DNA of 64,000 nucleotides, taken from Tubulanus polymorphus (lineage: Eukaryota > Nemertea > Palaeonemertea > Tubulaniformes > Tubulanidae). Location: positions 8,484,850-8,548,849 of the forward strand of contig NC_134029.1 in the NCBI RefSeq assembly GCF_964204645.1. Direction: 5' to 3'. This document shows, in pieces, positions 41,470-47,400 of the stretch. A program made the position numbers and the translations under genes. Each line of letters begins with the position of its first letter. Positions within the stretch are counted from its first letter, which is position 1. The notes under the pieces are model-generated. The model saw nothing but the letters and a program-made list of their open reading frames with translations. It was not told where the DNA came from and did not search any database.

Positions 41470-44400
41470 TTACAGATTTCCAGCCCGTAGAGCTTGTATC
41501 AGACGTCGTCGAGCGTCAATTACTTTTTGTTCTTGCCGACGAACGTCGTCGTCGTTTATCATAACCGACTGAAAACCATCGAAGAGATTACGATATATAA
41601 ACAGCAACAAACCAACAAACCCGAGAACTACCCGTGAGAGAAAGGAATCACTCCTCAGGACCTCGTGACTTGGATACCCGACAGGGTCCCTACATAGATC
41701 GGTCATTCTTGAATGGAATTTCAAAGAAAATTTCAAATTTCGAGGAAGTGTCTGCATCACTTTCATATCCTTGTATATCATAGTACTCAAAGGACAATAA
41801 AGATATATAGAATTGAATTATCCCGATTACTGTAGACTCCTTCTAAATTGGTAATGTTTATCCCGGTATACCAATGGTTTTGTGAACAGATTTTCATCTT
41901 ACACACTTCCTAATTCGGTAACCTCCCAAGTGTGTAAAAAAAAAACTAGGGGTCCAGGGACACCATGCCCACTTGGGAAGTGGTTTCAAATGCTCAACAA
42001 TCTAACAATTTCAATATTCAACGTCCCCTGGTGCCCATTTACAAAAACCAATGACCTTAAAACTCACCACAATCATAGAACATGTCAGCAGCTACGATTT
42101 TGTAATTGATTGTGATAACAAAATATGCCTCGTTACCAATTTAATATGGAAATACTAAGTCATTCTACTATTCAACGCCTCCTGGTGACCATATTCAAAA
42201 CCCAATGACCTCGAAACTCGCCACAATCATAGAACATGTCATGAACTACAACTTTGCAATTGATCATGGTAACAAAATATGCCTAGGTACCAATATAATA
42301 AGGAAATACTAAGTCATTCTACTATTCAACGCCCCCTGGTGACCATATTTAAAACCCAATGACCTCGAGACTCACCACAATCATAGAACATGTCATGAAC
42401 TACAACTTTGCAATTGATCATGGTAACAAAATATGCCTAGGTACCAATATAATAAGGAAATACTAAGTTATTCTACTATTCAACGCTCCCTGGTGACCAC
42501 TTAAACTTATGTCCTTAAAACTCACAACAATCATAGATGATGTCATGAGCTACAACTTTCCAATTGATTGTGGTTACAAAATATTCATAGGTACGAATAT
42601 AATAAAGAAATGCTAAGATATTGTATTATTCAACGCCCCCTGGTGGCCATATACGAAATCCAATTACCTTGAAACTCACCACAATCATAGAACACGTTAT
42701 GAGCTACAACTTTCTAATTGATTGTGGTAGCAAAATACGCTTAGGTATCAATATAATGTGGAAAAACTTTTTCCCACTTACGAATGAGTACTGGTTACAC
42801 CAAGATGGCCGCCAATTGCGTCATAATTGGCTGATGAAAAATACCTGTCTCAGGTATAATACATCCCTTTCCAAAGAACACCCATCACAAATTGTAATGA
42901 GAAATGGCAAACCAGTAGGAAGCTACAGACTCAGAATTCGGGCCAAAATTAACATTTTTGGGCACTAAAAAGGTCATAGGACGGCCATCTTGAGTCCGAC
43001 CGACCCAATTTTTGTTATGTTGATGGGCCCTGGGGGGATTCACATATATCCGAAAGATCAAGGTAATTGATCAAAGCCTCTTCAAAATTTCCCTCAAAAA
43101 GTTCAAAAATGTGTAAAAAGTGCTGATTTTGGCGAACAACAATGGCTGCCAGTCGGCCATCTTGATTCTGACAGGGCCAGTTTTTCGGCTGAAGATGTGT
43201 CTAGGGTAGATACCTGTGTAACCCAAATATCAAGACGTTACCTTGAAGCGTCTTCAAAACTTCCCAAAATAACTGGATTCCGTCTACGGACGGACGACGG
43301 ACGAAAAGTGAACGCAATAGCCCGCTGGGACTAAAGTCCCAAGTGGGCTAAAAATCCTGGTCTCAATTGTACCGATTAAGGCATAGTCTACTGTACAACT
43401 GTAAACTCGACAAAAATTTCCTGCCCGGTATTCTCAGAGCCATCCCTATAGGATACGTGTGTTAAAGTGCGACAAGATAGAAAGCCCTGTAAGCACAGTG
43501 GGGCTCTGGCGGCGCTGAATCAAACTAATGGTCACTCAGACACCATGCCCACTCGTTAAAATTCTTTTCAATCTCAGATGACTTCAATATACGATACCAC
43601 TCAGTGACCAAATACGGATCCATTTAGGACGGAATTGAGGAGCGAGAAGGCTCAACAGATTTAAGCAGTACACACCTGTATCATCGGTTGATCGGCGTTG
43701 ATATGAACGCCGGGATTTTTCTGTAGTTGAACTTTCGAAGCTTCCTGTCCGAGAACCGGCGTGCTGTTATTGTGCAAGCACGCCGCTATACTCTGCAGCA
43801 AATTCTCGTCGGTTAAAGCCGGGCCGATGCCTTGAAAAAATGAAATAACGAATCATCATAGCATAATGATAATAGTCCAATTGGTTATTGCAATCTGTTC
43901 ATGCATCGGGGACAGAACGAACGAGGAGCCTAAGACCTCTGTAAGACCCTAGATATGTGAAGTGCCGGTTTATCTAAAGGTACTATTTTCCAAGTGGAGC
44001 ACAATTTTGTCTAAAACAATCTAAAAGCCAATCAAAGTCTTTGAAATTCAAACTGCTAAATGCTCGTTAACTTACTTTCCAATATCAAATATTTGAATGT
44101 AAAATATCTTGAAAAATACCTCTAATATTTCTGGGCAAGTTGAATGGTTTAAACTTTTCTTCATCTTTGTCACAGGATGTCAACCCTTGCAGACGTTTCT
44201 CCCAGAATAGCTGTTAATTCAATAAAAAGATACAGTTTATAACTTTTTTCGGTTAGTTGACTAAACTCAACCATTCACAGGGTGGCCAGTTTCTGCCAAT
44301 TTACAAATTCCCCGAGTTTCCCTCGATTTAAACATGTTATAAGACTGAGTAATTCCGAGGAATTTCTTGGTTAAAAATGTTACATTTTATTCATTTTGTG

Positions 44401-47400
44401 TGAATCATTTAGTGATAAAGAAATGCGTGGTCAATGTTATATCCAAATTCCCTGAATTTTCCAGGTTTCCTTTTAAAACAAAATTTGTCAAATTCCCGAA
44501 GATTTCCCTGATTTCTTTATAGATTTTCTAAGTTTTCCACATCAGTTGCAAACCTGCCATTTAAGCTGGCAAAAATCTATTTCAATAATCTTCTAAGAGT
44601 GCCATATATTCATACAGTGCTGCAATAATTACATCCCACTCGGCAGGGATTCGCACCTGATGGCATCGAGACTCACCGCGGTACGAAACCCAGCCACACT
44701 AGCCTGAGCGCACAGCTCAGATGATTGTCATTATTAGCCGATCAGATATCCCTATTCATCCTAGCGCATGTTTTTCCATTCATTAGGTTATCTGTGAAAT
44801 TTGCCTTAGCAATTTTATGACGGGCAATCCGATTGGTGCAGCAAGTTTTCTTAAGCAAACCTCTCGTCTCGAGCTAGTGTGGGAGGGTTTCATACGGAGT
44901 ACCCTGGCGAGGCCATCAGGTTCGAGGGAGGATGAGACACACGAGGTATTACGTACTTGTTTAGGTTGGTCTTGAACACCGTGTTTCAGATCGGTTTTAG
45001 TTTTACTGTGAGATCGAGTTCGTTTTACCGTCACTGGCTGTTTGAATATCGACGCCGTCTGACGAATCGGCAAAGCCAAAGCCGCGTCGTGTCTCATCCC
45101 TGTAGCAGAATTAATAATAATACTAATAATAACAGTCATTTGTCATCAGAATTAAGAGAATTAATGAAGTCTAAGTTTTGTGGGGAAATCAATGATAGAA
45201 AATACTGAAGAAAGGGGTTTACGGTATTGTTTTTTTTTATCAGCAATGTATTGTCAACCTATTACCCCCCCCTCCCTAATCTTTGGACCAAAGATCTTTT
45301 CAGTTTCTTTTATACAAATTTCAAAATCGAAGGTGTTTGATATTCGAACACAGGTCGTTAAAACTAATTGACAATGAACTTAATTTTTGTTAATCAGGAA
45401 TTCTAAATTTATGCTATGGAAACAATGGATGGTACGGCAGATAAATAACAGGCCTAATATTGACAATAGTTACTTTTTCGAAGAGGATTCTGGTTGATTT
45501 TGCCCGATCGGAAATCGAACGACGCCAAGTCGAACGAATCGCCGAGTACTCGCGCCATCATTGGTTTCGTCCTTATTTTTCGACCATCGGGACTGAAAAG
45601 GTATAAGATTTCGCACATTTGAAATATTGTACATGAAGTGAATCAGGTGAACATTTAGGCCTGCATTATTCATGGTTCCAACAGATCCAGTAAGAAATCC
45701 AACTTTCCTGATATTTCCCTGACCCTCAATCGAAAATTCCCTGATTGAATTAAGAATACCCAGTATGGGCTATTTCTCTCCAGAGATTCCTTGTGCGACT
45801 CATCAACAAATATACACAGTTGACCGCCGGGACTGACAATATCCATACGATACAAGCGAAATATGGAATCAGCATAGCATATATTGAAGAGACTTATTCG
45901 CACCGAATGAAATATATGACATAAGTAATTCTATGAGATATGCAATGACGATATAGGCTCAAGCGTAATCAACTCTACTCACAAATTCCCTCATTTTCAA
46001 GAAAAGTCAGAATTCGCTGATTTTCTATAGGTAGATTAGAAAATAAATCTGGAATTTTCTGATCGGTATGAACCCTGTAGGCTATTCGGGTAGGCCTACT
46101 GCTAACAACTTAACAACAACTCCGAAAGACCCTAAAAAATTTGATATAATTTAGATAATGGCATCAGGCCTATTCCAGTTAACTGCTAGTTTGCAAACAT
46201 CTATAGGCCCCCCTATATAGTTGTCTTTGGTCTAGAGGGTTCATAGGATTAGGTTTAGGGTCCATTTCAGAGGTAGGGAACGAGCCTCGGTGGTTAAGTG
46301 GAAATACAAGCTACACTAGCAACACACAGGCTAGTCAGTAACCTGTCTGTGGTTTAGTTTCACGATCGGATATTTTCACAAACCACAGTCAGGAATGGGA
46401 AGGTCATTTTTGTATAAAATCTTCGTCAGCCAATTTGACTGACGAGTAATTTGCCTGGCATTTCATTGTCTCTTAAGATATCCGTCTAATTTTTGTTGTA
46501 ATCGACGCACAACAGATTCGTAGTTTGTCTGATACCTATAACACCTCACCTGACGATCTTAATCCATGTGCAAATCGGCCGTAAAGTGAGAGTAAATTTC
46601 CGTAGAGTCAACAGCTGCCATTTTGAAAATTACTGGAGGTGCTGGCACCTGTGGACTGAGGCCAGGACAACAGCACAAACTAACAAAGCGAAACGACGAA
46701 ATTGAAAAATATTAAGAAATCAACACTTATTCACATTTTTCTTTTACCAGAATTTATTATTTAAATATTAATTAAGGAAAACACGAAGATTTGAAATATA
46801 GGTTGGAGAACCATCAAAAATAAAAATTGTCGTTTCGTCTTGGAAGTTTTATATAAATCCTTGTAGGTCCCCTTGTCTTATCATGCCACATGTGCAATAC
46901 AGAGAAATGGCGGCCAATGGCGAAATTTGTGGAGAAATTAATTAATTTCTCAAAATAATGTTGATTAATCACTCGAAACATGCATAAAATTGGATTATTT
47001 CGAAAGGTACCTGTGTAAGTTTGTGAAATAAGCCATTAATTGTGGACTGAAGTGGATAGAAAGTATATTTTTGAAGTGTTACTTTTTTCAACCGTGTTTT
47101 GGCCCTTGTCATCCCTAACGTTGGTATAAGCCCATCCGATTATAAAAGCTTACCACCAACGATTAGGTAACTAACTACATACAGGCAAGCCCGGGTGCAA
47201 ATTCTCCACATTTTCTTCAGTATGATGGGCAGAGTAGCTAGGTCAATAGCAAAATGGCGTTAACAGGAATAATGCCACATTGGCATTATATCACCTGCCT
47301 AGGCTAAGGCTAAACCTTGATTCCCTCACAAATGACTAGGGGAAGGGTGAACTACAGTACAGGATTTAAGATTGGATTGGGATTCAGAAAGAAGCAATCC

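Follow-up and report, generated by a model that had tools for sequence, protein, structure and literature searches.

An intron of an MBD2/3-like gene holds a tandem array of units that each carry a CTCF-like site, and it raises the question of whether such an array is a regulatory feature of the gene or has been carried there by a mobile element. The first-pass annotation of this DNA put forward both readings, phased CTCF sites on the one hand and the tandem core of a motif-carrying mobile element on the other. In mammals, the spread of CTCF sites by transposons is well documented; a DNA transposon bringing ready-made CTCF clusters, all in a fixed orientation, would add an independent case. 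What CTCF orientation does outside vertebrates is described as unsettled, and in echinoderms as different from that in vertebrates (PMC13317027).

The tandem array and its candidate CTCF sites

The window is the whole 64-kb stretch of DNA that was analysed. TRF reports a single array in it, 42015-42768 (period 154, 4.9 copies, 85% matches, score 1025). An array had been annotated at 41998-42765; the array is present, with its true start 17 bp later and its end at 42768. Its units start at 42015, 42169, 42323, 42477 and 42627, head-to-tail at a spacing of 154, 154, 154 and 150 bp, and a CTCF-type core lies on the minus strand in 5/5 units, which confirms the same-orientation tandem cores of the first-pass annotation. 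The core CACCAGGGGGCG is exact in units 3 and 5 and has one mismatch in each of units 1, 2 and 4. The features of the locus are collected in Table 1.

Sites were scored with reconstructed JASPAR MA0139.1 counts, the sole matrix used and that of the factor named at first pass. The site of the last unit, TGGCCACCAGGGGGCG, matches the 19-bp consensus of this matrix at 17/19 positions. Dinucleotide shuffles of the whole window (n=60) gave a mean maximum of 13.5 bits and a top maximum of 19.7, so that units 3 and 5 exceed whole-window chance. Unit 4 lies within this range and is therefore unremarkable alone in a 64-kb window; it is distinct only inside the array, where shuffles (n=1000) gave a 99th percentile of 13.1 bits and a top maximum of 15.2. 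The comparison of matrix scores with shuffled sequence that had been suggested for this array thus comes out in favour of the strong units outright, and of unit 4 within the array only. The chance per position is 1.1e-7 at 20.06 bits and 1.5e-9 at 25.13 bits. Three further single CTCF-type sites were found in the window at 1110, 16653 and 26885 (21.8-23.1 bits); each of them lies on the plus strand, opposite to the array.

Table 1. Coordinates of the features at the locus, in positions of the window
Feature	Position	Strand	Basis
Host intron of MBD2/3-like gene, splits MBD_C	41569..43675	-	Pfam MBD_C on both flanking-exon ORFs; GT/AG by eye
Non-autonomous Helentron (HINE), 1.4 kb	41946..43351	-	Ends set by nested copy in L030
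3' terminus CTAG	41946..41949	-	32/32 exact 16-mer ends in L001-L030, window copy included
3' subterminal inverted repeat CCCAAGTGGGC	41967..41977	-	Exact 11-bp inverse of 43338-43348
Central satellite-like array	42015..42768	-	4.9 units of 154 bp, TRF
CTCF-type candidate site, unit 1	42019..42037	-	15.5 bits (reconstructed matrix)
CTCF-type candidate site, unit 2	42173..42191	-	16.2 bits (reconstructed matrix)
CTCF-type candidate site, unit 3	42327..42345	-	20.1 bits (reconstructed matrix)
CTCF-type candidate site, unit 4	42481..42499	-	13.3 bits (reconstructed matrix)
CTCF-type candidate site, unit 5	42631..42649	-	25.1 bits (reconstructed matrix)
Unique part of element	42769..43285	-	Matched by 28 other loci
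GTCC-type microsatellite-like stretch adjoining 5' end	43286..43302	-	Read from sequence
5' hairpin enclosing GCCCACTTGGG	43319-43349	-	End folds at -21.3 kcal/mol (RNA parameters)
5' subterminal inverted repeat GCCCACTTGGG	43338..43348	-	3 nt from 5' terminus; exact 11-bp inverted match to 41967-41977

The array as the core of a probable Helentron

A genome search with the unit gave 130 matches, the best 40 of 1845 candidates being scored, and 30 loci (L001-L030) were fetched, of which L001 is the window's own copy. Homology to the focal copy starts at 41937-41947 in 29/29 other loci and reaches 43354-43357 in 24 of them, the remaining five ending short within the focal copy. These ends, common to copies dispersed over 29 loci, show that the annotation was right to offer the tandem core of a motif-carrying mobile element as its alternative. 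Read on the minus strand, the element consists of a T-run, GCCCACTTGGG in a hairpin, a GTCC-type stretch, the unique part, the array, CCCAAGTGGGC and CTAG. In 32/32 exact ends, CTAG is preceded on the plus strand by A, which is T on the element strand, and a putative 3' palindrome, GTCC-AG-GGAC, lies at 41952-41961 with arms of 4 bp only. One copy, in L030, is nested in a unit of another copy; it fits insertion into an A-run (a T-run on the element strand) with no clear target duplication, a 1-bp duplication being compatible with such a run. A search of phage records gave no match.

HINEs are non-autonomous Helentrons, and their features have been published (PMC4067079, PMC7492417). The element has 11-bp subTIRs, a 5' inverted repeat with a microsatellite, central repeats and TT insertion without target duplication; it is assigned to the HINEs because its subTIRs, 5' hairpin, GTCC stretch, central repeats, CTAG end and T-run insertion match the published features. 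Cg_HINE of the oyster Crassostrea gigas is described in much the same terms, with a subTIR, an inverted repeat and a GTCC-type microsatellite at one end, a subTIR near the other end, satellite-like central repeats and T-rich insertion without target duplication (PMC7492417). Its microsatellite is GTCY/GTCC, the same kind as the stretch adjoining the 5' end here; the two elements are likened by text description, and the word CTCF occurs 0 times in the main text of that report (PMC7492417). DINE-1 / HINE elements of Drosophila and mites are alike in subTIRs, optional tandem repeats and TT insertion. They also have a 3' palindrome, for which the candidate here is short, and the 3' subTIR here lies 21 nt from the terminus as against approximately 38-60 in the mite families (PMC4067079).

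The array is thus probably the central tandem repeat of a HINE, delivering approximately four to five candidate CTCF sites in the same orientation with each copy. Judging from its anatomy, the element would be copied by Helentron machinery and the tandem core would travel with it, each insertion thereby depositing its set of four to five sites in one orientation.

The unique part is matched over at least 450 bp by 26/28 loci, with a mean identity of 94.6% and 98.1% at best, which suggests that the window's copy is fairly young. This part also holds a degenerate duplication, 42982-43093 against 43154-43265 (approximately 172 bp apart, 67-71%), which is found in several loci and is perhaps an older central repeat.

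The MBD2/3-like locus and the spacing of the sites

Pfam searches of minus-strand ORFs identified MBD (E 3.6e-9) and, on two other ORFs, one half each of MBD_C (E 3.1e-14 and 6.3e-7). ORF 45454-45642, one of the four MBD2/3 ORFs searched in Pfam, gave no match, and an exon is therefore not claimed there. The HINE occupies approximately two thirds of the host intron. The intron also holds, at 43526-43640 and in the same orientation, what is left of the 3' end of an older HINE; it includes a single decayed unit at 43581-43614, which matches the unit at 62% and has lost the CTCF core.

A nucleosome covers 147 bp. The 154-bp period minus the 19-bp site leaves 135 bp between adjacent sites, which is less than one nucleosome, so CTCF bound at two adjacent sites would keep a nucleosome out instead of positioning it. 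The idea that neighbouring CTCF sites phase nucleosomes was rejected on account of this spacing. The spacing reported near strong mouse CTCF sites is approximately 180 bp (PMC6868436).

With its five sites on one strand, nearly evenly spaced within a gene intron, the array could be taken for a selected, locus-specific phased CTCF insulator of the MBD2/3 intron, but this is highly improbable: the unit is present thousands of times in the genome, units 1, 2 and 4 of the window copy score 13.3-16.2 bits, and both the room between occupied neighbours and the mouse spacing argue against it. The phased array proposed at first pass is accordingly weak, since the unit is dispersed, the gap is shorter than a nucleosome and the motif is not extra-conserved in older copies (see below). 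Because the array belongs to the repeated core of a common element, the copy in the MBD2/3-like intron is most probably a passenger of little consequence. The array is ordinary at this locus; it is the family that is potentially interesting.

Copies and CTCF-type sites across the genome

A 23-bp anchor, taken from a part of the unit other than the motif, has 7456 matches in the genome at up to 3 mismatches, against 0 for its control. Among 30 arrays, 23 have four units, five have 5, one has 6 and one has 3; since most arrays hold four units, the anchors would correspond to well over a thousand arrays. With motifs intact or decayed, arrays in such estimated numbers and at many places would be a natural experiment, and would allow CTCF clusters to be tested as barriers outside vertebrates.

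The perfect 12-mer core CACCAGGGGGCG occurs 4676 times in the genome and its reversed-pattern control 4 times. The core continues with TTGAATA, as in the element, in 3219/4676 cases (69%), which is a lower bound for the element's share of perfect cores because mutated contexts escape. The generic CTCF consensus CCASYAGRKGGCR was found 3901 times as against 35 for its control (approximately 110-fold), and 945/3901 stand in strict element context. An element match was found in 0/20 hand-picked CTCF-type loci, of which 19 lie within the first 6.2 Mb of contig C1, so a large set of CTCF-type sites exists apart from the element, and the element adds to it.

In the 30 fetched loci, the units (21,810 bp) contain 137 sites of at least 12 bits, and the remainder of 94,620 bp contains 4. 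Copies picked by the opposite element end have unit starts of at least 12 bits in 37/43 cases and of at least 20 bits in 23/43 (32/37 and 18/37 without L096, which overlaps L007). The commonest site form, TGGTCACCAGGGGGCGTTG, accounts for 85/137 sites; its T at matrix position 4 costs much of the score.

On contig C1, exact element copies, among the matches listed, start only at 6.3 Mb, and single CTCF-type sites are frequent earlier. This is a hint that the element is enriched mid-chromosome, perhaps in heterochromatin, and HINE copies may for this reason lie in closed chromatin. An apparent strand bias of unit copies on the same contig was rejected as an artefact, as exact reverse-strand anchors (C1:12210827, C1:16437885) are absent from the listed matches. 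A sister HINE family was sought from L007 and rejected: among the best 40 of 1403 candidates scored, the 39 others match L007 at 75-78%, and nine other loci (L097-L105) carry units of the window's own family, so the search gave no new core.

Conservation of the motif among unit types and in older copies

Unit types were defined as the consensus of the first, middle, penultimate and last unit in 29/30 arrays, the three-unit array being dropped. Among the four types 41/142 columns vary overall as against 1/19 in the matrix span (columns 5-23), and the fully invariant block is columns 1-19 (0/19 vary). The permutation P is 0.0076 for the pre-named motif window and 0.28 for any window, and 9/142 circular shifts do as well. 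The lone change within the motif gives the last unit the base that CTCF prefers. The pattern is a modest sign that the motif was conserved while the element was active. At the level of sequence the likeness to CTCF is more than passing, with two of the five units at 20 bits or more, the motif in the least variable block, and 69% of perfect cores in the element's context.

Older copies were sampled from 218 places mutated in a different part of the unit, of which 100 were listed and 40 hand-chosen; they supply 93 units of at least 100 letters with a mean divergence of 6.9% from the nearest type. The alignment has 259 rows, 237 of them with 100 letters, and 144 of these come from the 30 fetched loci. 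At non-CpG columns that are invariant among types, divergence in older copies is 4.3% in the motif and 3.7% elsewhere, so constraint on the motif at the level of the host is not supported. Without the restriction to type-invariant columns the figures are 4.1% and 6.5%, a difference that is not taken as constraint because differences between unit types and subfamilies contribute to the excess elsewhere. Among 21 units with 10-15% outside divergence (208/259 rows counted), the motif diverges by 3.0% and the core is perfect in 17/21. Retention of the motif in these diverged units was considered as host constraint and rejected, since the outside differences include unit-type and subfamily variants and type-invariant rates are approximately equal. 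The first-pass annotation had taken a motif no more conserved than its neighbours in other copies as evidence against functional CTCF sites; older copies behave in this way and the unit types do not.

These rates bear on a second reading of the same HINE, in which the founding satellite unit happened to carry the motif and passed it on, with no useful binding of host CTCF, and low variation among unit types reflects chance or homogenisation of units. It is a possible reading, though one we consider doubtful. The any-window P, the circular shifts, the older copies at comparable columns and the costly T of the commonest site form are all consistent with it, as is the use of a single matrix, because a match to one factor or another is to be expected in 1.4 kb. 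Chance is, however, very unlikely to produce scores of 20-25 bits (approximately 60 sites expected at 20.1 bits and 0.8 at 25.1 in the 268-Mb genome), and the sole change in the motif among unit types improves the match. Under the favoured reading of a HINE that delivers candidate CTCF sites, the motif may have been kept during the element's activity because binding helped, e.g. by accessibility for transposition, or may have been kept by way of the founding unit.

The conserved block could also serve the element's own Rep/helicase as an iteron-like site, or be bound by another zinc-finger protein, the likeness to CTCF then being secondary. The offset of the invariant block from the matrix span points in this direction, as do 58 matches to Helitron_like_N in the genome, several within long open frames. 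The genome-wide excess of the CTCF consensus over its control, and the lack of element matches at the 20 hand-picked loci, speak against it, and we judge it improbable. The degrees of confidence placed in these two readings and in the favoured one are not exclusive shares, since the HINE anatomy is common to all three.

The CTCF orthologue and known parallels

Fingers 3-7 of CTCF contact the core motif. A CTCF orthologue is encoded on C3, where exons give the best protein match to the human zinc fingers (62% and 52% identical to a reconstructed human query sequence). Eleven C2H2 fingers can be read, in three blocks. In fingers 3, 4 and 5, recognition-helix positions -1, 2, 3 and 6 are identical to those of this human sequence; each of fingers 2, 6, 7 and 8 departs from it in at least one of these positions, 6 and 7 being partly changed. 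Host CTCF would be expected to bind many of the candidate sites where chromatin is open.

The mouse SINE B2 is the nearest functional parallel, although B2 is a retrotransposon and the tandem cluster here lies in a rolling-circle DNA element. Both are mobile families that scatter CTCF motifs in one lineage; CTCF binding to B2 was shown by ChIP (PMC7520972), whereas the sites here are candidates from sequence. CTCF-like motifs have been described at boundaries or in open chromatin in squid and a small annelid (PMC9023564, PMC7854359). The literature searched gave no account of CTCF arrays in a Helentron or Helitron, from which absence in print does not follow, and PMC12407938 and PMC5498337 add nothing decisive. 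A larger claim would be that a rolling-circle transposon became a vehicle for CTCF clusters, with well over 1000 same-orientation arrays of four to five sites, most of the perfect cores of the genome, rewired loop barriers and boundaries in an invertebrate, and selection on binding at the level of the element; taken as a whole, this is unlikely.

Other repeats with CTCF-type sites

A further CTCF-bearing repeat was suspected at L052/L053 and rejected as a local duplication, as it has only 2 genome copies at up to 3 mismatches. A short tandem cluster of three CTCF-type sites at steps of approximately 35 bp, with no HINE match, lies at C1:83860-84270 (L039). Another repeat, seen at C1:166300-167400 (L111) and C11:10112500-10114700 (L110), carries CCACCAGATGGCG sites, which in many cases are paired back to back in inverted orientation, 57 bp apart. 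It occurs at 148 places at up to 2 mismatches, partly near contig ends and partly in local arrays; the CTCF sites of human subtelomeres offer a comparison. This repeat adjoins a 76-bp satellite with a GGGTTCGAACCC segment that is tRNA B-box-like.
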